Below, piece by piece: positions 1 to 38,026 of a DNA stretch of 64,000 bases. How positions within the stretch are numbered: the first letter of the stretch is position 1; every line of letters starts with the position of its first letter. The position numbers were made by a program, and so were the translations under genes. The notes below the pieces were generated by a model, which searched no databases, was not told the DNA's origin, and saw only the letters and a program-made list of their open reading frames with translations. Source of the DNA: Deltaproteobacteria bacterium (GTDB taxonomy: Bacteria; CG2-30-53-67); assembly GCA_013151235.1 (NCBI GenBank), contig JAADIO010000008.1:3627-67626 (forward strand). The letters run 5' to 3'.

Positions 1-3000
1 CCGTGATCTCCGGATCGGAACCTACGACCGTATAGGTCAGGTTGTTCAGGTCGGTCTCTCCGGGGTTGCTGAGCTTGATCGGGACGACGATGGAACCGTT
101 CTTGCTCATCTGCCAGGTCTCAATGGAGGGAGAAATCACAAAACTGGAGATCGTAAAGGTATCCTGGACATAGTGATCGTAGATGTCGGGATGGGCGCCC
201 CAGACCGTATAGACACCGGCCTCGTTGGGGCGCGGCACAAACATCACCTGATAATTCCCGGAAGCGTCGGTGGTGGCCGTGAGGTAGCGGACGAATCCCT
301 GGACCGAAACCCCGACCTTGACCGGCACATAGGGCATGGGCTGACCCGTGGTGTTGCTTACAGCCAGACCGGTGATCAGCACCGGGTCGGTTTTGAAGAG
401 GGTTTTGTTTCCCGCAACCTGGGCGGACACCGAATAACTGGTGTCGGAGAGGAAGACCTCCTGCTCCCGGGCCGGTCCTGGGGCCTGGACCTGGTTGCTC
501 CCGTTATAGTCGTAATAGATGTTTGCAATGTTCGCACTCAGTTTAACAAGATTGGGGGAGGCCGAGGGAACGACAAATTGAATGGGGGCCAGTGTCAGGC
601 TCTTCCCGGGCTGTATGGCCGCCACAATCACATGGTTGGATTTAAGGATGAATTCCGGCCCGCCGAGGGACTGTTTCAGGGCGCCGGTCGCCAGGATGTT
701 TCCGTCTACATCGACAAGATCAACGCGAATATCAGGTGAGGGTTTCGCTCCGTCCTGTTCGGCTGTGACGATTTGAATGGGAATGTCACCGTTGTTTGAT
801 ACCTTGAGCTGTACGGAAGCCTGCCCACCTCGAAGCAGCGGATCGTTCAGGATCTCCACGGTAACGTCCGCATCCGTCAGACCGACTGTGGAGACGGTCT
901 CCAGTCGGACGGTACTACCGGGTTCGGGCCGCCCCACCAGGGCCAGATCGACGGTCTCCTGTGAGGCGGCGGAATCGGGCACCGCCACAACCTTCGCCAC
1001 GGTCAACTGTGAACCGGCGGGAACGGGACTGGAAAGCGGGATATGATTCGTCACGCCGTCTGTCCCCACGGTGACTTCAAGTTCATTGAAGGTCCAATCC
1101 TGAGATTCATGATTCAGAATCGAGACATTAAGCCTGGAAAGGGACCCGCGCCGCAGGACCTGGCCGGATGCGAGGGAGACGGAGACATCGGGCAGGGTCA
1201 CTTCCCGGACCGGGCTTTCATTGGTTCCATCGGTTACGGAGACTCCGTAGATCACTGAGCCGCCGGTGTAATAATTATCCAGATAGGGGCCCCCTGCCAG
1301 CGGCGTGGTAGTAACCTTGACGCCGTTTCTGTAGACGAAATAGCTCATGCCCGTGCTCACCGCCCAATCGAGGCGGACTTCTCCCAGGGAGGTGTGCGTC
1401 ACGGTCAGTTGAGACACCGGCGGCAGGGTGACGCCGATCTGGGCCGTGGTGGGAGCGCTTTCATTCCCCACGGCATCCACGGCCGTGACACCGTAGGTAT
1501 TGGGCCCGGCGGCAGGCATGTTGTCGATCAGCGTGAGGGACGCGGTCTCACCAATCAGCCGACTGACCCCCGGAACGATCGTACCTGTTGCATCCTGGTA
1601 AAGCCTGTAGGCTACGACATCGGCATCCACCGAAGCATCCCAGGCCGCCTTGATGCCGCTTCCCTGCTCCGTTAGGGTGAGTGTGGCCGGGGCGGCAGGC
1701 GGTGTGGAATCGAGGGTGACCGGGACCTCAACCGACGACAGGCCGGGGTCCCCCTCCAGGTCGATCCCTTCCACACTGTAGTAATAGGTATCTTCATACG
1801 GAGGGACGTCCTTATATGTTGTCGAGTTCACACCACCGATAACGAGGACCGCTTCCGAGGGGAGCTGGGCGGCCGTCCGGCGGTAGATATCATACCCCCC
1901 CACGGCGCCGTTCACTTGCGTCCAGTTCAGATCCACCTGCCCTCCGGCCAGGGCCACTGCGGTGAGTACCGGAGCATCCAATGGCGGCAGCTGCTTGTTA
2001 TAGATGACGAAGGTCTCCCCCTCGGTGATCACGGTATCGGTGTTGCCGACCAGGTCCGTGGCGGAGAGGATAAAGAGACATTGGCCGTTCTCCAGGCCTC
2101 CCAGCATGGAAAGAGTAAAGGTCTGCGCGCCGGTCCAGGACCCGTCAATCTGCCGGGTCAAGGCTATGGAGGAAACAGTGCCGTCGGGCGTGTTGAGGTC
2201 GAGGAGCGGGGTCCCGGAAACGATTTCATCAAACTGAACCGTGACTCCGACATTCACGTTTGTCTTCACGCTGAAAGGCGCCGCCGACGAGAGTGAAATC
2301 GTGGCCCTGGGACCCTGGTGATCAACAAATACCGTGGTCTCGCCGGTGGCAACGGTACTCCGGTTCCCCACGTAATCCTTGCCGGAATAGGTGATGGCCG
2401 CCGGGCCGTGCGGGGTCTGACCGTCCACGGTGAAGGTCCCGGTCCATGTGTTGGAGCCTGCGGCCTTCATGGCGATGGGAATGGGTGTACTGCCCGCCGG
2501 AATCACACTCACAAAGGGAAGTTCCGCCAAGTCTTCCGCGGCATTGACGGTGATGGTCACGTTCCCGCTGATCAACCGGTCCGGATCGACACTGATTGTT
2601 GCCGCAGGAGGCAAACGGTCGCCTGCGAGGGAGACGACGTTAGAGATAGGGCTTTCGTTTCCGGTCCCGTCCACGGATGTCACCGCATAGTAATAAAGGT
2701 CGTCATCCGCAGGCAGGTAATCGGTGTCGGCCACGGTGATAGCGCTGCTCACGGCCGTGACACCCGGATCCGAAGGAGATGTGAAACCGGCAGCGGACTG
2801 ATAAAGGACGTAATGATCCGGAACTTCGCCCGTTGGTGGAGACCATTGGAAGTGGATCACGCCGCCTGCCTGAGCTCCGGCGGTCAACGAAAGAGGCGCA
2901 CCGGGCGCACCGGTATCGAGGGTGACATAGAACGGCATCGAAGGTGCGCTGTCCCCTCGCCGGTCCGTAGCAATGGCCTTCAGCTCATTACTCCCTTCAG

Positions 3001-6000
3001 AAATGATCACATCCGGAAAGCTGAACTGTTTTGAACTTTTCACGACAGCTATCGAATCCCACAAAACGCCGTTGACCAGAAGGGTGATGATCTGCGCCTC
3101 TTCGGCGGTCCCGTCCACCGACGTCAGCGTGGGCGTTGAGACCGTGCCGCTCGGAACCGTGCCGGTCAGGACGGGGGGATCAGGCTGGGCGCCGCTGACG
3201 ACGATTCCGTAGCTATAGACCGCTTGGTTCCCGGCGGCATCGAAAGTCGTGATCTCGACGGTGTGGTTCCCATCCGCGTAAATGAGGTACGGCAGACCGA
3301 TATTGTAGAAGGCGGCGGCGGTATTGGTGGCGCTGGTCGCAAGATTGGTCCCGTCCACACCGATGGCTACCGATGCAACGGCGCTTTCGGTATCGGCCAC
3401 CGTCACGTTGATATTGTAGGGCTGATCAATCACCTGTCCGTCGGTGATATTGATGGAACTGATTTCCGGCGGGGTCGTATCACTTCTCGGAGCGGCGGAG
3501 ACCGGTATGACGGTCTTTCGTTCACCGCCGCTGATGTTCACCGTGGTGACGGCGAAATCATATTGCTGACCGTTGGTCAGGCCCGTAATCACGGCCTGGC
3601 CACCCATGCCGCTAACCGAAACCGTAGCAGCCGGGGTGAGACCGGTCACATCGCTGATCGGGTTGACGTCGTAGTAGACATTGTAGTGATCCACATAACC
3701 GAGCAGGCTGCTCGGCAGATCATCCCATGTCAGCGTCACCTGCCCGCTTGCCGGCGTTACGGCAAGATTGGCCGGATTCCTGAGCAGGGTCACGGGCTGG
3801 ATGACGGCGCCGTTGCTTTCATTCCCATCCTGGTCGGTCAGCGTGATCCGGAAGGTATACTGTGTTTCATCGGACAGTCCCGGTTTGGTGTAGGTATTAT
3901 CACCCAGAGGAACCGGCGTTCCCGAATCGTAACCGGTGCCGTCATTGAAGTAGAGGGTCTGCCCGGCCACATCCGGTTCCGTGGTGTTTCCGGTCCAGCC
4001 GAGAGTCACGGTATTGACCCGGCTGCCGTCTTCGGTGACGGACAGAACGGAGAGCGCTGTCACTTCCGCCGGGGCCTGGGTATCCATCGGGGTACCCGGT
4101 TTGGAGGTAACCGCCGGATCAAAGTGACCCATGTCATCAAAGGGAACCACCGCGAAATAATAGGTCTGCCCCTTGGTGAGTCCACCAACGGATGCGGTCT
4201 GTGTCCCGGCATTGACGGTCTGAACCGTGTTTAAGCCACTCACCGTGTTAAAGCTCGACAATTCTTTATATATCTGATAGAAGGCCACATCCGTTTCGGT
4301 ATAACCGGCCCAGGAAAGATGGACGGTGCTTCCGTCTCCATTTTCGTCTACCTGGAACAGATTGAGCGGGATCGGTTGCGGTGCAGAGCCATCATAGTCG
4401 ATGGTGACACTCCTGGTTACAGAGTTGCCCGCGGTGTCCACCGCAGTGAATGTAAATTGATTCGGCCCGTCACTCATAGCAGGTGTGTCGTAGGACCAGG
4501 CCCCATCGGGGTTCACCGTAATCGATGTGGCCACATTGACGGTCAGCGCGGCAGCGGCCTCCGTCGTACCACTGATCGTTTGCGTATTGACATCCGTCGG
4601 ACTGGTTACCGGATTAATGGTCAGGGAAGGCGGAATCGTATCCAGCGTGACGTTGTAGGTCAGTGCACCGCTTGCATTGCCCGCCGCATCCCGGCTCGTG
4701 ATGATCAGGCTCTGCGCTCCCTCATTCAGCCGGTAACTCACGGACCAGGCGGTATTCACACTGGGCGGAACCATCTGGGCCCCGTTGATCCGGATATCGG
4801 AATAGGCCTCCTTGGTCCCGGAGAGGGGCAACATGGTCGTGCCGGTCAGAGCGGGAACGGGGACATCTACCGTGGGGTCGGCCGGCGGAACCGTATCGAG
4901 TTCAAAAGAATAGGAGTTCGCAAGGAGCATGCTGTTATGATCAAGACCACGGGCGCCGGAAACGGACAGATGATAGGTGCCGTTTTGCATGGCCGGCGTA
5001 AAGGTATAGGTCCCCTGCCAAGTGTCGGTGTCGAGCCAGGCGCCGTCGGTAATGGTATATGGAACAGCGTTCGGATCGATCACGGAAACGGCGGGCAAAA
5101 TCGAAGGATCCATCGGTTCGGAGAAGTCGAGGGTGTATGTCACGGTCTCCGCCTTCACAGGGGAGGCGGGTGAAAGCTGTGTGAATGTAATAAAGGGGGC
5201 TTGAAAGTCCGTGGGGACGGCAAGGCGAAGGTCCGGCTCCCGGGACGACGAGCGGATATTATCCACAATCATATCGCAGGACGCATTGATTCCTTCCGCA
5301 CCGAAGACCAGGCCCGTGGCTCCGGTGAGATCCACCGGCGTTATACTATCGGCTTCCGAAACACCGTTTACATAGAGGAATGAACCTCCGGCGCCGTAGG
5401 TTACGGCAACCTGGTACCAGGCTCCCGGCACCAGGACCGTCGATGAAAGGATCTGCGTTCCATTGATGTCGAGCATGAGGGTTCCGGATTGGATATCGAG
5501 CGTCACGGGGGTTCCGGCGCCGTCGATGATGCTCAGGATGCGGCCGTCCGTTTCGTACCAGAGGAAATGGAATTCCAGGGTCCCCGCTGCGGCATGGATT
5601 ACCGCCGGATCATAATCGACCCGGTCCGTCCCGGTGAGCGATAGTCCCTGGCCCTGATAACCGTAGTCGAAGAGACCGCCGGTAATCACGCCCAGGGAGG
5701 ATCCTTCCAGGGAATCATTCAGCAGGGTGGTGACACGGTCCACGATAAAGGTGTGCGACGTATCGGGAGCCATGACGTTTCCAGCCCAATCCGTAGCCTG
5801 AGAAAAAGAGAGTGTATATGTGTCGTCGGCAACCGTCCCCGAATAGGTCCCCTCCCAGGTCCGGGCATCGAGCCACACGCCGCTTAAGACATAGATGTCG
5901 TAAGGAGCAGCCGTACCGAAGGTGACGACCGGCGAGACACCGGTATCCATGTCTTCGTTGAAGGTCGCCGCTACGGTTAAGACATTCGAGGCCTTGTCAT

Positions 6001-8992
6001 CCGTAATTGTAATATTATATGTTGATAAGGTAGTTGAAGCAGATATTGTTGCAGTAAAATTGGTCGCATCATAAGAATCATCTGCTTTGGGAGCAATCAC
6101 AAAATCCACTGGATCACCCAAATTTACGGGAACCGTTATTGCGTAGTTGAACCCCACAGAATCGTTGTAGGAAACCGATTGAGTCCAAACGACAGATCCA
6201 TTAACTATGATAGAACCGATGATTCCATCTCCACCAACAATTGCATCAGCTCTTTTGGCAATATGGCCGAAAATATTGATATTACCATTAACATTACTCA
6301 ACCATCGTCGGATTGCCCAATGCTCCTGTCCATTATTTATGCCGTTCGGATGCCCCCCACCTGCAAATAGACTAGTCCAAGGCGGGTTACCGTTATACCA
6401 ATTCCACACTATTCCATTCCAATAATCATTTGGACTTGTCCCAGGACCATCATCGTCTGGGAAAAGGGTAAAATCGCCGGGTTGATATATACCATCACTA
6501 TCCACAGTCTTATTATAATAACCATATTCCCAATTATCTTGGCCCTGGACGCCGGAAAATCCTGATACAGAATCGGTAATTGCAGTATTAGAAAATATTT
6601 TTGCTGTAAAATTGGTTGAATCATAATTTTCCGTTGCATTTGGAGCAATAGCAAAATCAACTGTTGCACCAACAGTGACCGGAAATTTAATCAAATAATT
6701 AATGCCCGTTGAATCATTATAAGCTACAGGGAAGGAAAATTTCTCCACACCGTTTACAAAAATATAACCTACCGTCCCATCTCCACCGGCTGTCGCGAGA
6801 GGATTCTTTGCCAACACTCCATAAATAGTCACATCCCCTTCATAGTCACTTATCCAACGTTTCATTGCCCAAAGTTCATTACCTGATTGAACACTATTGG
6901 GATGAAATACCTCAGAATATAATTCCACATACGGTGGCTTGACGTACCAGCCCCAGAATTCTTCCAGATTATTCCAGAAGTCCGTTGAGTTTACGCCGGG
7001 TCCGTCATCATCTGGAAAAAGAGTAAAATCTCCCTGTTGGAATATACCATCACTATCACCTGTCTTATTATAATAGCCATACTCCAAATTATCCTGACCC
7101 TGGACGCCGGAAAATTCTCTGACTGAATCAGCAAGCAAATCGCTGGAATCAACTTGAAAGGTCCAATTCAATATATCATGATTTTCCCATTGACCTCCTG
7201 TGCCACCGGTAAAGCCAACCCATGCTAAATCGCTTTGCAAATTCAGCAGGGTTTCCAAGTCGAGACTCACAGACAGCACCGGTGTGGAAAGATCATCGAT
7301 ATAGATATCTATGTTTCCACGGTTGTATGATATTTTCACAGAATGGATATTCCCGTCAGACAAGTTCGGAATGTTGGATGCACATCCCAAAGCGGCAGAC
7401 TGATCCTGGCTGTTGGGTGCTACCCCCATTGATTGTACGCAAATATGGTTATCATCAGAATCCCAACTGCTGTTCAGAAAAGTATCAAACTCAACGGCAA
7501 GACTAGCCGGGATATTCTTATACCCCAGTCCCCCACCATTTCCACCTAATGCTGCTGCACTATCATTTTGAATCACAAATGCAAATCCATCGGCACCACT
7601 ATTCGTGGGAGTAATTTGAAAATCAAAAGTGGTATCAAACCCCTTCTGAACCAGTTGCTTGTTTTGATACCAAAACGCACCTGCTTGATAACCTGTATTT
7701 GTGAGTCGTATTTTGTTATTATATTGGGTAGCACTTCCGGCCAAAGATAAATCTGTAGTGTCAGAAAAATCCAGAAAGTTAATATCCGGAATATGTTTTT
7801 CAAAAGTAATGCCTGCTAACATTAAGTGAGAGACAGAATCGGATCCATGATCAACGATTTCGATAGAAGTTATTGAATCATTCCAAAAAGAATGGGGTAA
7901 ATCCACACCCAGCATATCAAGCCGGCCTTCTACACCATTCACGTCATGTTGGGTTACAAATACAGGAACGCTGTTGGAATCGGTCACAGCATTGGCATTC
8001 CCAGCCTGGTTCCAGTCCCGAATATTAAACCCGGTAATCAAATCAACCGTATACAACTGACCACGTAGCGTTCGAAAAGTAATACTCCCTGCCCTGAATG
8101 GTGTACGTCCCCAAAATGTATTCAAAAGAAGATAGACTTTCTGAACATTGTTTGCAGAGGTAGTTATTGAGATTGTATTTCCATTCGTATTAATCCATGA
8201 ATCCGAAAAACAAAAAAAATCACTCCCGCTGGCTGGAATATCAAAAGGAATACCTCCCAATGGACTCACAGGTGAAGATAGATAGTAATTAGAAAGTTGT
8301 TCATTAAAAAGACCTCTCAAATCCACTGTTGAATATGAGCTATAAGCTTTTGGTTCAGTCTCCATCGTCACGCCGGCCAACCGGATATGGGAATAATTGT
8401 CCGAACCGTTATCCGTGACCGTAATGGAAGTGACCGTATCCCCGATAAAAGAAGCGGGCAGTGCGACTTTCAGCATATCGATCCGGCCTGGCAGATTATA
8501 CTTACCGGAAGTTACTTCAAAGACGGGGGTACTATTCGGGTCGGAAACAGTGTTCACGAAGGTACCGTTATTCCAGTCCCGGATATTTACTCCACCGACA
8601 AGGTTAATTGTGTAAGACTGCCCCCCCTGGGTTGTAAATGTGACACTCCCGGCGGCAAAATTAGAGACACCCCAATTGGAGTTGACAAGCAAATAAGCCG
8701 TTGTTGCATCCGGTGCATTCGTACTTAATGTCAGGCTATTTCCGTTTGTTGTGATCCAAATATCGGAAAAGCTAAATACATCGTTCCCGGTGGTGGGAAT
8801 ATCAAAGGGGACACCTCCGAGAGGACTGGGTGGTTTCGACAGATAATCGCTGATCAGTTGTGCATTGGCGGCACTGCTGATATCCGTGGTGATGTAAGTG
8901 GCGCTTGCTTCCTGGAATGTGACCAACCATAACGCCAGGAAAACAAAGAGCATGCACTTCATCTTAATGTTCTTGACAGCGGTGTGCCTCAT
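1..8992 (-). CDS. Giant secreted multi-domain surface protein (adhesin-like), 3' end outside window
   Basis: One reading frame stays open from an ATG at 8992 to the left edge, giving about 2,997 residues without the C-terminus. GAGG about 7 nt upstream supports this start; ATG 9004 and 8962 are in-frame alternatives. A signal peptide ends near AxA (TFQEASA, about residue 30). Domains in order: two related modules of about 180 residues (33-216, 228-400); an L-type-lectin-like domain (about 400-617; GADGFAFVIQ, AVEFDT, WVGFTGGTGG); two near-identical modules carrying LFPDDDGPG (about 618-988); a bacterial Ig-like domain; a LamG/concanavalin-like domain (about 1091-1251); further Ig-like domains; then some seven fibronectin type III domains and Ig-like linkers to the edge. 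The likely role is binding carbohydrate or other cells at the surface. Function and ligand are inferred from domains only; the export or anchoring signal would be in the missing C-terminus. Confidence 0.85.
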   Translation of the reverse strand, partial: MRHTAVKNIKMKCMLFVFLALWLVTFQEASATYITTDISSAANAQLISDYLSKPPSPLGGVPFDIPTTGNDVFSFSDIWITTNGNSLTLSTNAPDATTAYLLVNSNWGVSNFAAGSVTFTTQGGQSYTINLVGGVNIRDWNNGTFVNTVSDPNSTPVFEVTSGKYNLPGRIDMLKVALPASFIGDTVTSITVTDNGSDNYSHIRLAGVTMETEPKAYSSYSTVDLRGLFNEQLSNYYLSSPVSPLGGIPFDIPASGSDFFCFSDSWINTNGNTISITTSANNVQKVYLLLNTFWGRTPFRAGSITFRTLRGQLYTVDLITGFNIRDWNQAGNANAVTDSNSVPVFVTQHDVNGVEGRLDMLGVDLPHSFWNDSITSIEIVDHGSDSVSHLMLAGITFEKHIPDINFLDFSDTTDLSLAGSATQYNNKIRLTNTGYQAGAFWYQNKQLVQKGFDTTFDFQITPTNSGADGFAFVIQNDSAAALGGNGGGLGYKNIPASLAVEFDTFLNSSWDSDDNHICVQSMGVAPNSQDQSAALGCASNIPNLSDGNIHSVKISYNRGNIDIYIDDLSTPVLSVSLDLETLLNLQSDLAWVGFTGGTGGQWENHDILNWTFQVDSSDLLADSVREFSGVQGQDNLEYGYYNKTGDSDGIFQQGDFTLFPDDDGPGVNSTDFWNNLEEFWGWYVKPPYVELYSEVFHPNSVQSGNELWAMKRWISDYEGDVTIYGVLAKNPLATAGGDGTVGYIFVNGVEKFSFPVAYNDSTGINYLIKFPVTVGATVDFAIAPNATENYDSTNFTAKIFSNTAITDSVSGFSGVQGQDNWEYGYYNKTVDSDGIYQPGDFTLFPDDDGPGTSPNDYWNGIVWNWYNGNPPWTSLFAGGGHPNGINNGQEHWAIRRWLSNVNGNINIFGHIAKRADAIVGGDGIIGSIIVNGSVVWTQSVSYNDSVGFNYAITVPVNLGDPVDFVIAPKADDSYDATNFTATISASTTLSTYNITITDDKASNVLTVAATFNEDMDTGVSPVVTFGTAAPYDIYVLSGVWLDARTWEGTYSGTVADDTYTLSFSQATDWAGNVMAPDTSHTFIVDRVTTLLNDSLEGSSLGVITGGLFDYGYQGQGLSLTGTDRVDYDPAVIHAAAGTLEFHFLWYETDGRILSIIDGAGTPVTLDIQSGTLMLDINGTQILSSTVLVPGAWYQVAVTYGAGGSFLYVNGVSEADSITPVDLTGATGLVFGAEGINASCDMIVDNIRSSSREPDLRLAVPTDFQAPFITFTQLSPASPVKAETVTYTLDFSEPMDPSILPAVSVIDPNAVPYTITDGAWLDTDTWQGTYTFTPAMQNGTYHLSVSGARGLDHNSMLLANSYSFELDTVPPADPTVDVPVPALTGTTMLPLSGTKEAYSDIRINGAQMVPPSVNTAWSVSYRLNEGAQSLIITSRDAAGNASGALTYNVTLDTIPPSLTINPVTSPTDVNTQTISGTTEAAAALTVNVATSITVNPDGAWSYDTPAMSDGPNQFTFTAVDTAGNSVTRSVTIDYDGSAPQPIPLNLFQVDENGDGSTVHLSWAGYTETDVAFYQIYKELSSFNTVSGLNTVQTVNAGTQTASVGGLTKGQTYYFAVVPFDDMGHFDPAVTSKPGTPMDTQAPAEVTALSVLSVTEDGSRVNTVTLGWTGNTTEPDVAGQTLYFNDGTGYDSGTPVPLGDNTYTKPGLSDETQYTFRITLTDQDGNESNGAVIQPVTLLRNPANLAVTPASGQVTLTWDDLPSSLLGYVDHYNVYYDVNPISDVTGLTPAATVSVSGMGGQAVITGLTNGQQYDFAVTTVNISGGERKTVIPVSAAPRSDTTPPEISSINITDGQVIDQPYNINVTVADTESAVASVAIGVDGTNLATSATNTAAAFYNIGLPYLIYADGNHTVEITTFDAAGNQAVYSYGIVVSGAQPDPPVLTGTVPSGTVSTPTLTSVDGTAEEAQIITLLVNGVLWDSIAVVKSSKQFSFPDVIISEGSNELKAIATDRRGDSAPSMPFYVTLDTGAPGAPLSLTAGAQAGGVIHFQWSPPTGEVPDHYVLYQSAAGFTSPSDPGVTAVSSAITVADTDYLPADDDLYYYAVTSVDGTGNESPISNVVSLAGDRLPPAATISVDPDRLISGNVTITVNAAEDLAELPFVSVIPAGSTPIPIAMKAAGSNTWTGTFTVDGQTPHGPAAITYSGKDYVGNRSTVATGETTVFVDHQGPRATISLSSAAPFSVKTNVNVGVTVQFDEIVSGTPLLDLNTPDGTVSSIALTRQIDGSWTGAQTFTLSMLGGLENGQCLFILSATDLVGNTDTVITEGETFVIYNKQLPPLDAPVLTAVALAGGQVDLNWTQVNGAVGGYDIYRRTAAQLPSEAVLVIGGVNSTTYKDVPPYEDTYYYSVEGIDLEGDPGLSSVEVPVTLDSTPPAAPATLTLTEQGSGIKAAWDASVDADVVAYRLYQDATGTIVPGVSRLIGETASLTLIDNMPAAGPNTYGVTAVDAVGNESAPTTAQIGVTLPPVSQLTVTHTSLGEVRLDWAVSTGMSYFVYRNGVKVTTTPLAGGPYLDNYYTGGSVIYGVSVTDGTNESPVREVTLPDVSVSLASGQVLRRGSLSRLNVSILNHESQDWTFNELEVTVGTDGVTNHIPLSSPVPAGSQLTVAKVVAVPDSAASQETVDLALVGRPEPGSTVRLETVSTVGLTDADVTVEILNDPLLRGGQASVQLKVSNNGDIPIQIVTAEQDGAKPSPDIRVDLVDVDGNILATGALKQSLGGPEFILKSNHVIVAAIQPGKSLTLAPIQFVVPSASPNLVKLSANIANIYYDYNGSNQVQAPGPAREQEVFLSDTSYSVSAQVAGNKTLFKTDPVLITGLAVSNTTGQPMPYVPVKVGVSVQGFVRYLTATTDASGNYQVMFVPRPNEAGVYTVWGAHPDIYDHYVQDTFTISSFVISPSIETWQMSKNGSIVVPIKLSNPGETDLNNLTYTVVGSDPEIT
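6030..7140 (-). repeat. Second tandem module duplication (LFPDDDGPG modules)
   Basis: Two successive copies of about 185 codons share GVQGQDN-EYGYYNKT, GDFTLFPDDDGPG, a W-A-[IM]-[KR]-R-W motif, the pattern VGGDG or AGGDG and a closing FVIAP or FAIAP segment. They are much more AT-rich than the FN3 part of the same gene. No domain family is recognised with confidence. Confidence 0.7.
7790..8900 (-). repeat. Tandem duplication of an N-terminal module in the giant surface protein
   Basis: Two consecutive segments of about 180 codons encode related sequences. Both contain SPLGG[VI]PFDIP, a W-I-x-T-N-G-N motif, a NIRDWN motif and a closing segment with DxGSDxxSH. The second copy is more AT-rich and diverged, so this is an old domain duplication and not a recent DNA repeat. 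Confidence 0.7.
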
Positions 8993-9266
8993 AAGGTCCC
9001 TCATGGGTTTGGTTGTTTTGATGGTCTCCAATGATTCCAAGGGCTCTCTTCCTTGTCGTAGATCCCGCTGAACTTACGGGGATGAGCAAGGGCAGGGTTG
9101 AGGTTGAGCAATGCTGCAAATTCAGTCTGTTACAACCCCCTCCCCTTTATCCCCTCCCACCAGGGGAGGGGAAAATGGTGATCCCCTTGAGCGGATCGAT
9201 GTGCTCTCCCTCCTCTCCCGCATGGGAGAGAAAATATGACTTTTCAGGGTTCCGACCGTTGCGTTG
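8993..9266. other. Intergenic region with two GC-rich hairpins
   Basis: This gap holds perfect inverted repeats at 9151-9171 (CCCCTCCC, loop ACCA, GGGAGGGG) and 9213-9230 (CTCTCCC, loop GCAT, GGGAGAG). A third, similar palindrome occurs at 20580-20610. They resemble widely scattered CCCCTC-rich intergenic repeats of bacteria. No T-tract follows, so a role as intrinsic terminator is doubtful. The plus-strand open frame across this gap has no support as a gene. Confidence 0.55.
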
Positions 9267-30476: not shown

Positions 30477-31487
30477 TTACCGATACCCCTGCAGAGTAAA
30501 GGCCCCAAAGACCACGGGCCGGGAACAGAGCACCACGAAAGAGCAGATCAACAGGATGGAGAGGAGAATCCATTTCTGTTCCGTCCCCTCAATCAACCCC
30601 TGGAGGGTTGCGATCTTCTTCATGGGATGAAAGAGGCCCGGCAGGATCCCGAAAAAGACCCCGCCAAAAAGAGTCAGGTAGATCGGGTAGCCGACAAAGT
30701 CATAACCTTGCTGCAGAATGTCGAAGGGGCAGTGGTGGGAGGGGAGTTCGTAGATATAGATCGATACGAAAGAGACGATCGATGCGATGGCAACGAAAAA
30801 AGTGACCACGGAGAAGAGCGCGAGGAGTATCCGACTCGTTCCGGAGGACGATTTCAGACAGAGCAGGGCAACCCCCAGGTCGGCGAGAAGGGTCCCGTAG
30901 AAGAGGCGCATCATCGGCCGGGGCGGAAGGGCCGCCAGACCGGAGGCGATGGTAAATCCCCTTTCGCTGAAGAGGGAACCGCAGCAGGAGGTGATGACCT
31001 CCGGATGAAGTCCCGTAAAGTAACGGAGTTGGAAATAGAGGTCGAGACCGACGAGGGGCGTCAGGAACAAAAGAGCCGTATATTTCGGTCGAACCAGGGG
31101 GAAGTCTTCGGCCCGCTGGTCCAGGATGTTTCCGGTGATCCAGAAGGCGGAGGCGAAACCGAGGATGATCTTCAGAAAAAGGACATTCCATCCTGCAGGG
31201 TTGGCGTTGAGGGAACCCGTGGCACACATGGCACCGACGAATTGCGGATGAAGCCTATCGGCGGTATAGAGAAAAAGAAGGAGCGAGAGAATTTGAAAAC
31301 CGAAGGTGTAGTTAACAATCGTCGAGACGAGGAAGGTCTTGCGTTCAAGCAGTAGTTGTCTTTCCGAACTGCTTGTGAAATCCCAGCCCCGAAGGATCTG
31401 AATGCCCGTTCCCGCGGCGTAGAGGAGCATGGCGAAGGTGATGACGGAGCCTGCAAGAAGGGCGAGGATGCCGGGATGGAGAATCAC
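30477..31487 (-). CDS. Polytopic membrane protein of the NosL operon, function unknown
   Basis: 336 residues with about eight hydrophobic helices. The N-terminus LHPGILALLAGSVITFAML starts a first helix; others include FLKIILGFASAFWITGNIL, LFLTPLVGLDLYFQL and IYLTLFGGVFFGILPGLF. Possible metal or thiol motifs are ITSCCGSLF (about 150) and SHHCPFDILQ (about 255). No family is recognised. GTG 31487 overlaps the ABC ATPase stop by 4 nt, so it is translated with it. By context it may be the membrane acceptor or sensor of a copper or thiol pathway; this is inference only. Confidence 0.75.
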   Translation of the reverse strand: MILHPGILALLAGSVITFAMLLYAAGTGIQILRGWDFTSSSERQLLLERKTFLVSTIVNYTFGFQILSLLLFLYTADRLHPQFVGAMCATGSLNANPAGWNVLFLKIILGFASAFWITGNILDQRAEDFPLVRPKYTALLFLTPLVGLDLYFQLRYFTGLHPEVITSCCGSLFSERGFTIASGLAALPPRPMMRLFYGTLLADLGVALLCLKSSSGTSRILLALFSVVTFFVAIASIVSFVSIYIYELPSHHCPFDILQQGYDFVGYPIYLTLFGGVFFGILPGLFHPMKKIATLQGLIEGTEQKWILLSILLICSFVVLCSRPVVFGAFTLQGYR

Positions 31488-32182
31488 GACGGGAGGGCTC
31501 CTTCAATCCGTCCGTCCTGTATCTCGATGATCCGGTTGACGAAGGGATGGTCATAGAGAAAGGGGTCGTGGGTGGCCATTATGACCGTTTTACCTTCCCG
31601 GTGGAGGGAGGAGAGGATCTCCACGAGGTCCTCCGCCAGTTTTCGATCCAGATGGGCCGTCGGTTCGTCGGCGATGAGAACTTCCGGATTGTTGATCAGC
31701 GCCCGGGCGATCGCGACCCGCTGTTGTTCTCCGCCGGAGAGTTGATGGACCTTCCGATGTCTTTTCCCGGTCAGCTCGAACCGGTCGAGGAGTGACTCCG
31801 CCCGTTCCCGGATCTCGGTGAAGGATCTCCTTCCCGGAAACAGGGGGAGGGTGACATTTTCCAGCACATCGGCCTTCCGAATCAGGTTGAACTGCTGGAA
31901 AATGAAACCGAAGGTCCTCCTGCGGATCTGCGTCAGGAAACGCTCCGGAAGTTTAGCCACATCCTTCCCGCGGACGATCACCCTGCCGGAGGTTGGACGG
32001 GCCATGCAGCCGATGAGACTTAAAAGAGAGGTCTTGCCCGAGCCGCTCGGTCCCTTGAAAACCGTTGTCTCCCCCGGTGCAATATGGAGAGAGATCCCCT
32101 CCAGCGCCCGGATCTCATCAGGTTGGTGGGCATTGTAGATCTTCGTCACTCCTTCCGTTTGGATCAGATTCGTTTCCCTCAT
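31484..32182 (-). CDS. ABC transporter ATP-binding protein (LolD/MacB type) of the NosL operon
   Basis: 232 residues. Walker A GPSGSGKTS (about 40), Q-loop FIFQQFNLI, signature [15 protein letters not shown], Walker B VLIADEPTAHLD and H-loop ATHDP are all present, so it should be an active ATPase. The type fits mechanotransmission ABC systems that pair with MacB/FtsX-like permeases, such as the gene just upstream (2 nt gap). ATG 32182 follows GAGGAG; the longer open frame lies inside the permease gene. Confidence 0.9.
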   Translation of the reverse strand: MRETNLIQTEGVTKIYNAHQPDEIRALEGISLHIAPGETTVFKGPSGSGKTSLLSLIGCMARPTSGRVIVRGKDVAKLPERFLTQIRRRTFGFIFQQFNLIRKADVLENVTLPLFPGRRSFTEIRERAESLLDRFELTGKRHRKVHQLSGGEQQRVAIARALINNPEVLIADEPTAHLDRKLAEDLVEILSSLHREGKTVIMATHDPFLYDHPFVNRIIEIQDGRIEGALPS

Positions 32183-32184
32183 GA

Positions 32185-33339
32185 TCAACTCCTCATTACC
32201 ATTTCCGGGTCCGTTACCGCCGCCTTCCAGGAAGGGATCACCGTGCAGGCAATGTAGGGAGCAACCGTCAACAATGCGATGACGAACACCTGGTAGAGAT
32301 CGATATAAGGCGTCAACCGGAAGGTCGGGAAAAGGACCGACCACCCCTTAAGGACCGGGGTCAACAGAGGGGCGTTGAAGAAAAAGACATGGACGAAGGC
32401 GGCAGTCAGTCCCCCCAGCAAGGCCGTGAAGGAGATGACGATCCCCTCCCAAAACTTCAGTTCCAGGATGTCCGCCGTGTCCCATCCCACGGCCTTGAGA
32501 ATCCCGATCTCATTCTTTTCCGCGCCGCTGATCCCCGTGGCCTTGTCCCAGGCGAGGATCGAAAAAGCGAAGAGGGCGGCGGAGAAGAGGGTGAGCATCA
32601 TGCCGCTCCGCCAGTTGAAGACCGAGTCATAGGTCCGGAAGATCTCGTCTTTGGCAATGGGGCGGGTGCCCGGCAGCATCTTTCTGATCTTTGCGGCCAC
32701 CGTGGAAATTTCTTCGGGATTGTAAACCTCGACAACAATGTCCGTCGCCCGGTTGGAGGGAAAGTCGAAGAATTTCTGAATGCCCTTCCGGGTCATCAGG
32801 ACCAGATCGTTACTCAGCAGGTTGGAGGCGGCATCAAAAATGCCGACGATGCGGAATTTGACACTCTTGTTCCGGCTGTCGATGAGGACCAGTTGGTCCC
32901 CCAGGCCGGTGAACTGCGCCCGGGCGACCCCCCGGCCGATGGTACATTCCCCCTCTTCGGCAGGCATTTGCCCTTCCACCAATTTGAGTCCGGGAAGGCC
33001 CTCCCGGATCCCCATGAAGGTATAGTTCGATTGGGAGAGGGCGTCGAAGTAGTAGCCCCAGTATCGCGGATGGACATCGCCGACACCGGGGATCTTGCGG
33101 ATCAAATGGATATCGTCCGTCGAGATGAGGTCGTGCCTGCCTGCGAAGAGCTTCTGGACGATCAGGTTCGGCGCATCGGAAAAAACCGCTTCGGCCTCTT
33201 GCTTCAATGCATGGGTGAGAAAAAGAATGGAGGCCAGGATCGAGATGGTCAAGGCATAGACGATCACGAGGGAGAGGTTCTTGTATTTTCTCCGCAGGAG
33301 GGAGGAAAGGGCGTATTCGAGGATCTTCAGACGTCGCAT
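32185..33339 (-). CDS. MacB/FtsX-like ABC permease of the NosL operon
   Basis: 384 residues. One N-terminal helix (LVIVYALTISILASILFLTH, about 25-45), a large extracytoplasmic domain (about 50-265) and three C-terminal helices (MLTLFSAALFAFSILAWDKA; VISFTALLGGLTAAFVHVFF; ending PYIACTVIPSWKAAVTDPE) give the FtsX/MacB layout. Such permeases do not move ions through a pore but transmit force to periplasmic partners. ATG 33339 was chosen over a frame extending 58 codons upstream into the next gene. Confidence 0.85.
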   Translation of the reverse strand: MRRLKILEYALSSLLRRKYKNLSLVIVYALTISILASILFLTHALKQEAEAVFSDAPNLIVQKLFAGRHDLISTDDIHLIRKIPGVGDVHPRYWGYYFDALSQSNYTFMGIREGLPGLKLVEGQMPAEEGECTIGRGVARAQFTGLGDQLVLIDSRNKSVKFRIVGIFDAASNLLSNDLVLMTRKGIQKFFDFPSNRATDIVVEVYNPEEISTVAAKIRKMLPGTRPIAKDEIFRTYDSVFNWRSGMMLTLFSAALFAFSILAWDKATGISGAEKNEIGILKAVGWDTADILELKFWEGIVISFTALLGGLTAAFVHVFFFNAPLLTPVLKGWSVLFPTFRLTPYIDLYQVFVIALLTVAPYIACTVIPSWKAAVTDPEMVMRS

Positions 33340-33349
33340 GATATAGACT

Positions 33350-33664
33350 TTACCGCCGGATTTGCAAGGTGGTTGTTGAATCCGCCGGCCTCCCCGGTGC
33401 CAGGATCGAGCCGGCCGGAAAATGCTCGAAGGCGGAAGGGGAATCCTGAAAAGGGGTGAAGCAGTCCGCCTGCGAAGGATGCCGGGTATAACGGGCCTCC
33501 GTCCAGATCGCAAGGTCCGTCAGTTCAAGAGTTTTCACCAGTTCTCTCTTTGCCGGGATTACCCGTTCTTCCCGGGTCAGGCAGACGCGGGAAAAAAAGA
33601 ATAACAGCCCCAGAACGAGGCACTCCACGATGGTGATGCCGAGAAAGATCTTGTGCTTCTTCAT
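33350..33664 (-). CDS. Single-helix periplasm-facing protein of the NosL operon
   Basis: 104 residues: a short basic start (MKKHK), one helix (IFLGITIVECLVLGLLFFF), then a soluble part with DLAIWTEARYTRHPSQADCF and a conserved-looking PFQDSPSAFEHFPAGSI. It probably faces the periplasm as a signal-anchored protein. ATG 33664 overlaps the stop of the NosL gene (ATGA). No family recognised; a single Cys in QADCF could be a metal or thiol site. Confidence 0.7.
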   Translation of the reverse strand: MKKHKIFLGITIVECLVLGLLFFFSRVCLTREERVIPAKRELVKTLELTDLAIWTEARYTRHPSQADCFTPFQDSPSAFEHFPAGSILAPGRPADSTTTLQIRR

Positions 33665-34140
33665 TGCATCCCCGGGAGGTCTAAAAGGGTGACCTCGTGG
33701 AAGGAAAGGATCCGTTTCCCACGGTGGTCCTTCCTGAAGGTTTCAGCCTTTTCCTGGCCCAACACCGGCACCAGTTCCGGCCCCATGGGGCCCATCACGT
33801 CACTTCCGACGACAAACAAGGCCTTTTCGGCAGGAACGGTTTGGGTCGTATAGTAGTCGGTGACATAGACCTCACGGATTTGATTCTTGTCCACATCATG
33901 GTCGTACTTCTTCGGTTCCAGGATATAACGGAAGAGGTCCTTGGGGCCGTCAAAGAAGCGGTGACGGCCGTCGGGAAGGACCACCTGTGCGAGCCATCGG
34001 TCATACTTCGCGACAAACATGCCGCAGACCGGACAATGATCCTTCGGACCCGGGTGGGCCGGGTCAGCATGGGCGATCCCCCCCGGAGTCATAAAGGTGA
34101 GAAAAAGGAAGAGCATTCGCAGGATGGTTGTTGTTTTCAT
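33661..34140 (-). CDS. nosL: NosL-family copper-binding protein
   Basis: 159 residues with a signal peptide (LRMLFLFLTFMTPGGIAHA) but no lipobox Cys. The NosL copper-site motif CPVCGMFVAKYDRW (C-x-x-C-G-M) follows, then FFDGPKDLFRY and SDVMGPMGPEL, which is the second Met-bearing motif of NosL. NosL proteins hold Cu(I) and deliver it to periplasmic copper enzymes, classically N2O reductase. No nosZ is in the window. ATG 34140 fits the signal peptide; the open frame upstream does not. Confidence 0.85.
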   Translation of the reverse strand: MKTTTILRMLFLFLTFMTPGGIAHADPAHPGPKDHCPVCGMFVAKYDRWLAQVVLPDGRHRFFDGPKDLFRYILEPKKYDHDVDKNQIREVYVTDYYTTQTVPAEKALFVVGSDVMGPMGPELVPVLGQEKAETFRKDHRGKRILSFHEVTLLDLPGMQ

Positions 34141-34313: not shown

Positions 34314-35735
34314 TCAGAAGGTCCATTGCCACCCGGCGGTCAACTTCCAGTCGGTCTCCAACTGGGGTCCGTCGAGACGCTGGTAGAGGGGAAGTCCCCC
34401 TTCGAGGGTCAGACGGTGCCCCCGGTGACGGCCCCCGGAAGTATCGAAGGCCAACCCGAGGAGGAGGTCGAGACGGGTCCCTCCCCGCCGCTCGGGATCG
34501 GCCGTAGGAGTCATGGCGGTCATCGTCGGGGAGAGGTCGGAGTCGGCGCCATCGATCTTCCCCCAGGATGTTCCGTCGAGCCGTACGGAGAGGCTGAATT
34601 TCCGATTCACCCTGCGGGTGAGCCAGCCGGTCAAGTCGATTCGGTTCCCCAGGGTATAGTCGTTGCTGTTTTCCCCCAGCCGGAAGGTGGCGATCCCCTG
34701 GGCGCCCCAGAACCAGGGGTTGCTTCTCCCAAGGTAGGTAATGCCGGGGAGGAGATCGAAGGTCCCCGATCCGAGTTGCATGGGGTAAGGCAGATGCTGG
34801 TTCTTCCCGGTGGGGGTATCATCCTTCCGGTCGATGGAGCCGGTGGGGAGACTGAGGCCAACCTTTGCGATCAGGTCGTGCGTGTCTTGATGGAAGAAGT
34901 GACAGAGGACGCTCACCTTCACGTCACCGACCCCTTCCGATTTTGTTGTAAACCTCTGCACATTCATCATCATCTTCCGCTCGTTGTCCATTTTGATGAC
35001 AAGATAGGGGACCATAGCCATGAAGGTGAGGTCGGGGTCAGGGGCAACCATGGCACCGAGCATGTGCATCTCCATGGTCATCTTCTCGGGGACGACCATA
35101 AATGTCTTGTGAACTTCATCTTTCCCTATCCGCTCGGTCCCGTCCCGGTTTCCCTCCATCTTCATCGTCATATAGCGGTAGGAGAGCATGATCCCGCCAG
35201 GATGGTGGGTATGTGCCCCCATGACCCCGATCGGCTCGAACCCGCCCGTGTGGGCGAAGCCCCCCGTAGCGGAGAGTTCCGCCAAGGTGGTCGGTGTGAT
35301 CTCGTCAAAGGCGAGCAGGGCTGTTCCCCCCCGTTCGGCAAGAAAGGCCTTCGCCTCGCCCTTGGATCCGAAGGGAATCAGCTCTTCCCCCATCGGTCCG
35401 GAAACAGAGGATCCCAAAACGAACCAGGCCGATCGTGCATCAATCCAATCATGTGTTTTGTGGTCGGTCACGCGAATGACGGTGATGTCCGAGGATTTCC
35501 GCCCCTCGGCAGGAAGTTGAAAGATATAGGTAAAGAGGTCCCTGGGACCATCGAAAAAGAGACGGGAGCCTTCGGAGAATGTGAGCGAGCTGACCCAGCC
35601 GGGATAGGGGGCAACATACATCCCGCAGACGGGACAGCGTACTTTCGGCCCCGGCTGCAGAGGGTCGGCCACGGCGGAGGAAGTTACAAAAACAAGACAG
35701 AAAAACAGAGGAAGGATGCAATATTTTTCTTCCAT
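34314..35735 (-). CDS. NosL domain fused to a Met-rich outer-membrane beta-barrel-like domain
   Basis: 473 residues. A signal peptide (ILPLFFCLVFVTSSAVADP) is followed by a NosL domain (about 25-175) with CPVCGMYVAPYPGW, FFDGPRDLFTYIF and SSVSGPMGEEL. The rest (about 190-473) shows alternating beta-strands and ends with aromatic residues (TAGWQWTF), like an outer-membrane barrel. Its early strands are rich in Met and His (GAHTHHPGG, MTMKMEG, EKMTMEMHMLGAM), which suits Cu(I). It heads the operon, with AGGAGGTGAA before ATG 35735. The barrel assignment is from pattern only; a soluble beta-rich domain remains possible. Confidence 0.8.
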   Translation of the reverse strand: MEEKYCILPLFFCLVFVTSSAVADPLQPGPKVRCPVCGMYVAPYPGWVSSLTFSEGSRLFFDGPRDLFTYIFQLPAEGRKSSDITVIRVTDHKTHDWIDARSAWFVLGSSVSGPMGEELIPFGSKGEAKAFLAERGGTALLAFDEITPTTLAELSATGGFAHTGGFEPIGVMGAHTHHPGGIMLSYRYMTMKMEGNRDGTERIGKDEVHKTFMVVPEKMTMEMHMLGAMVAPDPDLTFMAMVPYLVIKMDNERKMMMNVQRFTTKSEGVGDVKVSVLCHFFHQDTHDLIAKVGLSLPTGSIDRKDDTPTGKNQHLPYPMQLGSGTFDLLPGITYLGRSNPWFWGAQGIATFRLGENSNDYTLGNRIDLTGWLTRRVNRKFSLSVRLDGTSWGKIDGADSDLSPTMTAMTPTADPERRGGTRLDLLLGLAFDTSGGRHRGHRLTLEGGLPLYQRLDGPQLETDWKLTAGWQWTF

Positions 35736-36087: not shown

Positions 36088-37488
36088 ATGCAAAATGCCG
36101 CTTTTCACCCTGGAAGGCAGATGGCTACCGCCCCGACTCAGATTGCATTCCGATGGCTGTTGCATTTGCGTTGGGGGGCGGTGGCTTGTCTGACCTTCCT
36201 GGTCTTGATCGTCCATCTCGCTTTTGCGATTGAGCTGCCCTGGGGCATCGTTGCCGCCATCATTCTTTTTGAAGCGGGGAGCAACATCTTCTTCCAATGG
36301 CTGGTGCATCGTGGGTCGACCATTCCGGGATGGCTCATCAACCCGGTCATCCTCCTCGATTTGGTTTTACTCACTGTCCTCTTGGCTGACACCGGTGGTC
36401 CGATGAACCCCTTCACCTTTCTTTATCTCGTGTACATCGTGCTTGCCACGATCCTTATGAAATCGGCTTGGGCCTGGGGGATGAGCCTCTTCGCTATTTG
36501 TTGCTACGGCAGTTTTTTTCTGTTGTCGTCACTCAGTCCACTGCCCTTGCCTTTTCCTCAGTGGGAAACCCTCTCCGGCAGCCCTTTTCATCTGCCCATG
36601 GCCCACGGTTCACATCTTGAGCTTCCCATGGTCATGCACTTGCAGGGGATGTGGGTCGCCTTTGCGATCACCGCCGTTTTCATTGTCTTTTTTGTCGGCA
36701 AGATCCGCAAAACATTGGAGTATCATCAGGAAACCTTGATCTCTTTGCAGCAAGAGAAGATGCGGGGCGAGAAGCTGGCATCATTGGCGACGCTGGCCGC
36801 CGGCGCCGCCCACGAACTCTCCACACCTCTTTCCGTGATTGCTGTGGCCACCGGAGAAATGTTACACTCACTCAAACGGCAAGGGGAAAGTTCGGAACAC
36901 ATTGACGACACAATCCTGATCCGGGAGCAGGTGGAGCATTGTCGTAGGATCCTCAACCAGATGGCCACGGATGCCGGCCAGCCGATGGGAGAGAAACTGG
37001 AGGAGATCAGCATCAATGCATTGCTTGCCGAAGCCGTTGAGCCGTTTTCGGAACAAGGGCACCGCCTGATTCTGCTTGACTCCGCGGCCGGCAACCTTGT
37101 GTTTCGTATCCCTTGTCGAACCCTGGCACGAGTGATCAGAGGTCTTGTCAAGAACGGCCTCGACGCCTCAAAACCGGATGGACAAATCCGGCTTTACTGC
37201 AACACGGACAGTCGATTTTTGTATATTATTGTTGAAGATCACGGAACCGGCATGGAAACGGAAACCCTCGACAAGGCGATCGATCCCTTCTTCACCACGA
37301 AAAGTCCGGGCAAGGATCTCGGTTTGGGGCTCTTTCTTGCCAAAACCGTTGCGGAACAATTCGGAGGATCTCTCCACCTTGATTCCGAGTTGGGAAAAGG
37401 CACCACGGCCACCCTCTCTTTCGCTCTTGAAAAAATCGCCATAAAACCGGCGAAAGCGAACGCTCTTCCCCCAGGAAAGGAATTGTAA
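36088..37488 (+). CDS. regB: Redox-sensing histidine kinase RegB/PrrB family
   Basis: 466 residues. About six N-terminal helices (30-220) carry the quinone-binding GGxxNPF motif (TGGPMNPFTFL). The phospho-acceptor His is in AAHELSTPLSVIAV (RegB style), and a Cys 43 residues later (VEHCRRIL) lies where RegB has its redox-active Cys. The ATPase domain has VKNGLDAS (N-box), EDHGTGM (G1), LGLGLFLAKTV and GKGTTATL. It should phosphorylate RegA in response to quinone-pool or redox state. CAGGAGG precedes the ATG. regA follows after 1 nt. Confidence 0.9.
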   Translation: MQNAAFHPGRQMATAPTQIAFRWLLHLRWGAVACLTFLVLIVHLAFAIELPWGIVAAIILFEAGSNIFFQWLVHRGSTIPGWLINPVILLDLVLLTVLLADTGGPMNPFTFLYLVYIVLATILMKSAWAWGMSLFAICCYGSFFLLSSLSPLPLPFPQWETLSGSPFHLPMAHGSHLELPMVMHLQGMWVAFAITAVFIVFFVGKIRKTLEYHQETLISLQQEKMRGEKLASLATLAAGAAHELSTPLSVIAVATGEMLHSLKRQGESSEHIDDTILIREQVEHCRRILNQMATDAGQPMGEKLEEISINALLAEAVEPFSEQGHRLILLDSAAGNLVFRIPCRTLARVIRGLVKNGLDASKPDGQIRLYCNTDSRFLYIIVEDHGTGMETETLDKAIDPFFTTKSPGKDLGLGLFLAKTVAEQFGGSLHLDSELGKGTTATLSFALEKIAIKPAKANALPPGKEL

Positions 37489-37489
37489 A

Positions 37490-38026
37490 ATGGAGCATTC
37501 GATCTTGCTGGTCGACGACGAGGTCGTTTTTAGAAATCGTCTGACCCGTGCATTCAAAAGCAGGGGTTACACGGTCTTTTCTGCCGGCAATTACGATGAA
37601 GCCGTGAGCAAAATCCGCTTCCATCAGCCCGCCATGGCGGTGGTTGACCTCAGGATGCCAGGAAAAAACGGCATCGAACTGATCAAAAAGACGCAGCAGA
37701 TCCATCCGAACATGAAAATAGTGGTACTCACCGGGTATGGCAGTATCGCTACCGCCATTGAAGCAACCAAATTAGGGGCCGTCTGTTATCTCCCAAAGCC
37801 TGCGGATGTAGATGACATCATTAGTGCTTTTGCCAGAAACACTGATCTGCGTTTGCAGCTTGAAGAAAGCGATTTTTCTTCCCCGTCACTGGCCAGGTCG
37901 GAATGGGAGCACATCAACCGTGTCCTCCATGATTGCCAGGGGAACATTTCCGCTGCGGCCCGCAAACTCGGTGTACATCGGCGCACCCTCCAGAGAAAGT
38001 TGCGCAAATATCCCCCCAAACAATAA
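37490..38026 (+). CDS. regA: Response regulator RegA/PrrA/ActR family
   Basis: 178 residues. Receiver domain (1-120) with acidic pocket LLVDDEVVF, phospho-Asp in AVVDLRMPGKNG and switch Lys in YLPKPADVDD. A proline-poor linker leads to the Fis-type helix-turn-helix (about 140-178): VLHDCQGNISAAARKLGVHR, then RTLQRKL, nearly invariant in RegA proteins. It binds GCGNC-N-GNCGC sites; one lies upstream of the divergent NosL operon. Confidence 0.92.
   Translation: MEHSILLVDDEVVFRNRLTRAFKSRGYTVFSAGNYDEAVSKIRFHQPAMAVVDLRMPGKNGIELIKKTQQIHPNMKIVVLTGYGSIATAIEATKLGAVCYLPKPADVDDIISAFARNTDLRLQLEESDFSSPSLARSEWEHINRVLHDCQGNISAAARKLGVHRRTLQRKLRKYPPKQ

Follow-up and report, generated by a model that had tools for sequence, protein, structure and literature searches.

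The window, a 64,000-nucleotide stretch of a deltaproteobacterial contig, encodes a protein that joins a NosL copper-chaperone domain to a predicted outer-membrane β-barrel rich in methionine (34314-35735, Table 1). The fusion exists in an intact reading frame; its parts belong to known families, the combination is new, and it is rare and apparently was made twice. Our proposal, to which we assign a probability of about 0.5, is that a single polypeptide here serves to acquire copper at the outer membrane.

The reading frame starts at an ATG at position 35735, downstream of a strong ribosome-binding site (AGGAGGTG). Residues 30-149 match the Pfam NosL model PF05573 (E 2.3e-28, 99.6 bits against a cut-off of 24) and residues 234-387 match PF13557, Phenol_MetA_deg (E 5.9e-6, 26.9 bits against a cut-off of 22). 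These are the only Pfam matches, and domains of TonB-dependent receptors are absent. The NosL part also aligns to solved NosL structures, the best being PDB 7og7 (E 5.7e-14), with the CxxCGM and GxMG positions retained, and so the complete NosL domain with CPVCGM and GPMG that was originally predicted from the sequence is confirmed. Inspection of the signal peptide by eye found no lipobox, and for this reason the protein is classed as carrying a NosL domain and not as a NosL lipoprotein. It thus shares with the known copper chaperone of NosZ (PF05573; PDB 7og7, 7osf and 2hpu) the domain, both motifs and a periplasmic location predicted from the signal peptide, but differs in that a barrel replaces the lipid anchor and that NosZ was not detected in the source genome.

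Another genome of the same genus (G005, locus L004) carries the same 473-aa fusion, identical at 379 of 473 positions (80%) with zero gaps. Between the two genomes dN/dS (Nei-Gojobori) is 0.29 for the NosL domain and 0.12 for both the linker and the barrel, and therefore both halves and the joint between them are maintained by selection. A sequencing or assembly chimera is ruled out by the presence of the same fusion, under purifying selection, in an independent genome. Promoter and terminator scans yielded no more than they did in shuffled sequence.

Table 1. Features of the fusion gene and its neighbours, in window coordinates
Feature	Position	Strand	Basis
NosL-barrel fusion protein, whole gene	34314..35735	(-)	473 aa; counterpart in sister genome, 80% identical over an ungapped alignment
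Sec signal peptide, SPase I type, residues 1-24	35664..35735	(-)	sequence MEEKYCILPLFFCLVFVTSSAVADP, by eye
NosL domain, residues 30-149, CPVCGM (34-39), GPMG (M115)	35289..35648	(-)	PF05573, PDB 7og7
Linker and conserved pre-barrel segment, residues 150-181, M172, H175, H177	35193..35288	(-)	conservation; plug position per PMC4493636, PMC5557850
Predicted outer-membrane β-barrel, residues 181-473, aromatic C-terminus WQWTF	34317..35195	(-)	AlphaFold2, Foldseek, PF13557
Met-rich strands 1-3, residues 183-256	34968..35189	(-)	M183, M189, M191, M193, M219, M221, M223, H224, M225, M229, M239, M241, M249
Free NosL, 159 aa, lipobox not seen	33661..34140	(-)	PF05573 E 6.1e-30
Small protein, 104 aa, one N-terminal hydrophobic segment, motif TEARYTRHPSQAD...FQD	33350..33664	(-)	conserved position
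FtsX/LolCE-type ABC permease	32185..33339	(-)	MacB_PCD 3.6e-13; lolCE 8.7e-12, under equivalog cut-off
ABC ATPase	31484..32182	(-)	ABC_tran 1.6e-34
Polytopic membrane protein of the cassette, 336 aa	30477..31487	(-)	recurs after ABC ATPase in other phyla
RegB/PrrB/ActS-like histidine kinase, divergent	36088..37488	(+)	NF033792 3.2e-60, 204 bits vs cut-off 350
RegA/PrrA/ActR-like response regulator, divergent	37490..38026	(+)	NF033791 1.3e-53, 182 bits vs cut-off 250

The C-terminal part is predicted to be an outer-membrane β-barrel. An AlphaFold2 model of residues 156-473, built from an alignment with 13 homologues, has a mean pLDDT of 80 and a pTM of 0.80, and a Foldseek search of the PDB places two 12-stranded outer-membrane channels of Pseudomonas, FapF (5o67, 4.6e-14) and Pput2725 (4rl8, 5.5e-13), clearly above other barrels. 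Against 4rl8 the TM-score is 0.62 normalised by query and 0.73 by target. DSSP assigns 13 long strand segments to the model, which we read as probably 12 membrane strands plus an extracellular hairpin, since P297-T-G corresponds to the PTG motif in loop L3, and GVGD is similar to the motif of loop L2. Of the homologous barrels tested against PF13557, several pass and two have no match. The original prediction took this β-strand region for a barrel and named a soluble, non-barrel fold as the outcome that would speak against it; the model gave an outer-membrane barrel instead, with FapF and Pput2725 as the nearest solved folds, so the proposal stands as a structural prediction.

In the COG4313 protein Pput2725 the barrel has 12 strands, with an N-terminal segment that occupies its lumen from the periplasmic side (PMC4493636). 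FapF begins with a periplasmic coiled coil, followed by a plug helix and then by the barrel (PMC5557850). As NosL sits on the N-terminus of the barrel, it would be placed in the periplasm at the barrel mouth. With the COG4313/Phenol_MetA_deg channels (Pput2725, 4RL8; FapF, 5O65) the fusion shares the predicted fold, the PTG motif and a segment preceding strand 1, and with FapF a periplasmic N-terminal domain on a barrel, NosL here taking the place of the coiled coil. It differs from these channels in its conserved ladder of methionines and histidines and in its copper-gene neighbours.

The Met-rich strands that had been picked out from the sequence are also real. Sixteen methionines fall within 85 residues (172-256) of the fusion, against at most 8 per 85 aa in other reading frames of the window, but as this stretch was selected post hoc, the sound evidence is the conservation of Met positions over 20 relatives. 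In the alignment of these homologous barrels M219, M221, M249 and M319 are present in 20 of 20, M193, M223, M225 and M241 in 19, M229 in 18, and M183, M189, M191 and M239 in 15-17, while H224 is also common, as are H175 and H177 ahead of strand 1. About a dozen methionines are thus nearly invariant among the close barrel relatives, and the conserved positions span cyanobacterial, proteobacterial, spirochaete, Bacteroidota and planctomycete homologues. By hydrophobic alternation the methionines of strand 3 point to the lumen, and strands 1 and 2 are ambiguous; the idea that this pattern makes all of them lumen-facing was dropped, as it worked for strand 3 alone.

A methionine ladder of this kind has a mechanistic precedent in OprC, an outer-membrane copper importer with a ‘methionine track’ (PMC8610252). 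The fusion resembles the OprC/NosA importers in being a probable outer-membrane protein with a row of methionines that may carry copper, but it is predicted to be a small COG4313-like barrel with no large plug domain and is not a TonB-dependent receptor. It is quite improbable that the barrel is a mere outer-membrane anchor with a copper site, on which NosL stores or senses copper with no transport taking place. The near closure of COG4313 barrels by their N-terminal segment (PMC4493636) would suit such a scaffold or sensor, but barrels of this kind that lack NosL have conserved these methionines too, which assigns them to a function of the barrel itself.

Standalone barrels with 33-58% identity to that of the fusion are found in Calothrix, Richelia, Zhongshania, a spirochaete, Filomicrobium, Bacteroidota, planctomycetes and others, as well as on Ruegeria plasmids, where they are annotated ‘transporter’. 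Several have copper genes as neighbours: PCuAC and SCO1 at L008 and L012, CusF with an RND set at L015, an MbnP gene at L013, and heavy-metal P-type ATPases at L083 and L087. No recognised copper gene is found near the barrels of L005, L011, L014 and L016-L018, and in this raw listing of neighbours the apparent association with copper genes is thus partial. A search of the open-access literature found no paper that ties COG4313 barrels to copper or reports a NosL-barrel fusion, and a copper-linked, Met-rich subfamily of COG4313 barrels appears to be undescribed.

The functions proposed so far for COG4313 proteins concern hydrophobic uptake; the crystal structure of Pput2725 is nearly closed, and it is thought to pass hydrophobic molecules (PMC4493636). 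In line with this, and with the MbnP gene beside the barrel of L013, the protein might conduct a hydrophobic molecule or a metabolite that binds copper, and NosL and the methionines would then have no more than an indirect part in it. We consider this very doubtful, as the fusion operon contains no catabolic genes, and the Met conservation and copper-gene neighbours would be unusual for such a role.

Two further proteins, both encoded on plasmids, were noted. In Methylosinus a 738-aa protein (L030:7780-9996 (+)) has an OMP_b-brl domain (PF13505) at its N-terminus and a Met-rich barrel at its C-terminus, possibly making two barrels per chain, and adjoins feoB and a PepSY gene. In Methylocystis a distant Met-rich barrel (L031:8025-8966 (+)) is labelled ‘alpha-amylase’, evidently a misannotation.

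The fusion itself is confined to one family. In a search of 386 genomes (327 genera) with a profile of the fusions, full-length matches were found only in the family of the window: two genomes of its own genus have the form called here type A, and two genomes of a sister genus have type B. The type B fusion has both domains (NosL 5e-17, PF13557 4e-7) and lies at the syntenic locus, with the same neighbours, namely the permease cassette, the ATPase gene and the EF-G gene; a PCuAC copper chaperone gene sits in its operon. C34, C37, M39 and M115 of the NosL domain are kept in both types. The source genome also has a second fusion gene, of type B (G000:C33, L003:604-1920 (-)), in which a frameshift, reflecting either decay or an assembly error, separates the NosL half from the remainder. 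It lies near a gene set for a cbb3-type oxidase, ~5 kb from the Cu-ATPase gene of that set.

Phylogenetic analyses favour two independent origins of the fusion within this family. In the NosL tree the type A domain clusters with the free NosL from these operons, and the type B domain clusters with the other tandem NosL from related operons. In the tree of barrels, type A branches from within the standalone sequences, and type B has a separate position. Trees that force the two types together are worse by 18 log-likelihood units for NosL (AU p 0.045, borderline) and by 24 units for the barrel (AU p 0.0048). A single common origin is thus disfavoured by the AU tests, if only at the borderline for NosL; given that the groups were named after the trees were seen and that branches are long, the evidence for two origins is good but not final.

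As originally predicted, a free NosL lies next door, adjoining the fusion gene and transcribed in the same operon direction. The genes that follow form a cassette that recurs in other phyla. No Pfam or NCBIfam match was found for the first 72 aa of the 104-aa small protein, the part that was scanned, or for the 336-aa membrane protein; in several phyla, the former is conserved between NosL and FtsX genes and the latter recurs after NosL-FtsX-ABC genes. There the FtsX-ABC-membrane protein cassette is preceded by a single NosL gene, by a pair of them, or by genes for double-NosL proteins. Examples of such proteins are L058:775-1887 (+) and L059:808-1854 (+), with two NosL domains per protein upstream of the same cassette, which parallel the tandem NosL genes seen elsewhere. 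The pairing of NosL with an ABC system is reminiscent of NosDFY, the ABC machinery for copper loading of NosZ, but the permease here is FtsX/LolCE-like.

The divergent two-component pair is called RegBA-like and not RegBA because both proteins fall under the NCBIfam equivalog cut-offs, although this is the best family for each. Such pairs are found next to the fusion gene of the window and next to three standalone barrel genes, those of the two Zhongshania genomes and of G327.

The source genome (G000) gave no match to the NosZ model TIGR04246, for which G005, G006 and G007 have matches (4e-143, 3e-157 and 3e-155) that are all under the cut-off of 625 bits and are thus NosZ-like. PF18764 as a further NosZ probe matched nothing, controls included, and carries no weight. 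PCuAC likewise has no match in the source genome, and so the fusion is retained there without either protein. A role as part of the nos (N2O) system was rejected, as the NosZ model has no match in this genome. Oxidases of the COX1 family are present.

In the mechanism that we propose, the Met ladder of strands 1-3 and the pre-barrel His and Met residues of a COG4313-type barrel would form a selective path for Cu(I) across the outer membrane. The tethered NosL at the periplasmic mouth would take the Cu(I), and the separately encoded NosL would receive it next. The FtsX-type ABC cassette, made up of the small protein, permease, ATPase and membrane protein, may then help to load copper enzymes of the periplasm or inner membrane, most plausibly heme-copper oxidases, for example of the cbb3 type. 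The operon would probably be controlled by the RegBA-like pair.

Import is preferred over export owing to the company of chaperones and the absence of an efflux pump from the fusion operon, and this direction is the weakest step of the mechanism. Were the flow reversed, the barrel would release Cu(I) or bind it at the surface, with the tethered NosL bringing excess periplasmic copper for detoxification, as the standalone homologues beside the CusF/RND set and the P-type ATPases (L015, L083 and L087) might suggest. Such a role is unlikely, however, as besides the missing pump, published work assigns NosL to enzyme maturation, as a chaperone (PMC7558416), other homologues have PCuAC and SCO1 as neighbours, and in the sister genus a PCuAC gene belongs to the fusion operon itself.

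For copper acquisition, a Met-rich barrel that occurs in many phyla, is often found beside copper chaperones and is here joined to one makes a concrete new candidate, and being physically fused to a chaperone is a much stronger sign that the barrel handles copper than having copper genes nearby. The apparently repeated origin of such a fusion within one family may point to an undescribed route for copper through the outer membrane. It is possible, if short of probable, that there is a widespread and undescribed group of TonB-independent, Met-lined outer-membrane copper channels of COG4313 fold, fused twice independently to NosL in one family to give a channel with a built-in metallochaperone.

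Elsewhere in the window, positions 1-9040 (-) hold an open frame of >3000 aa that extends past the window edge.
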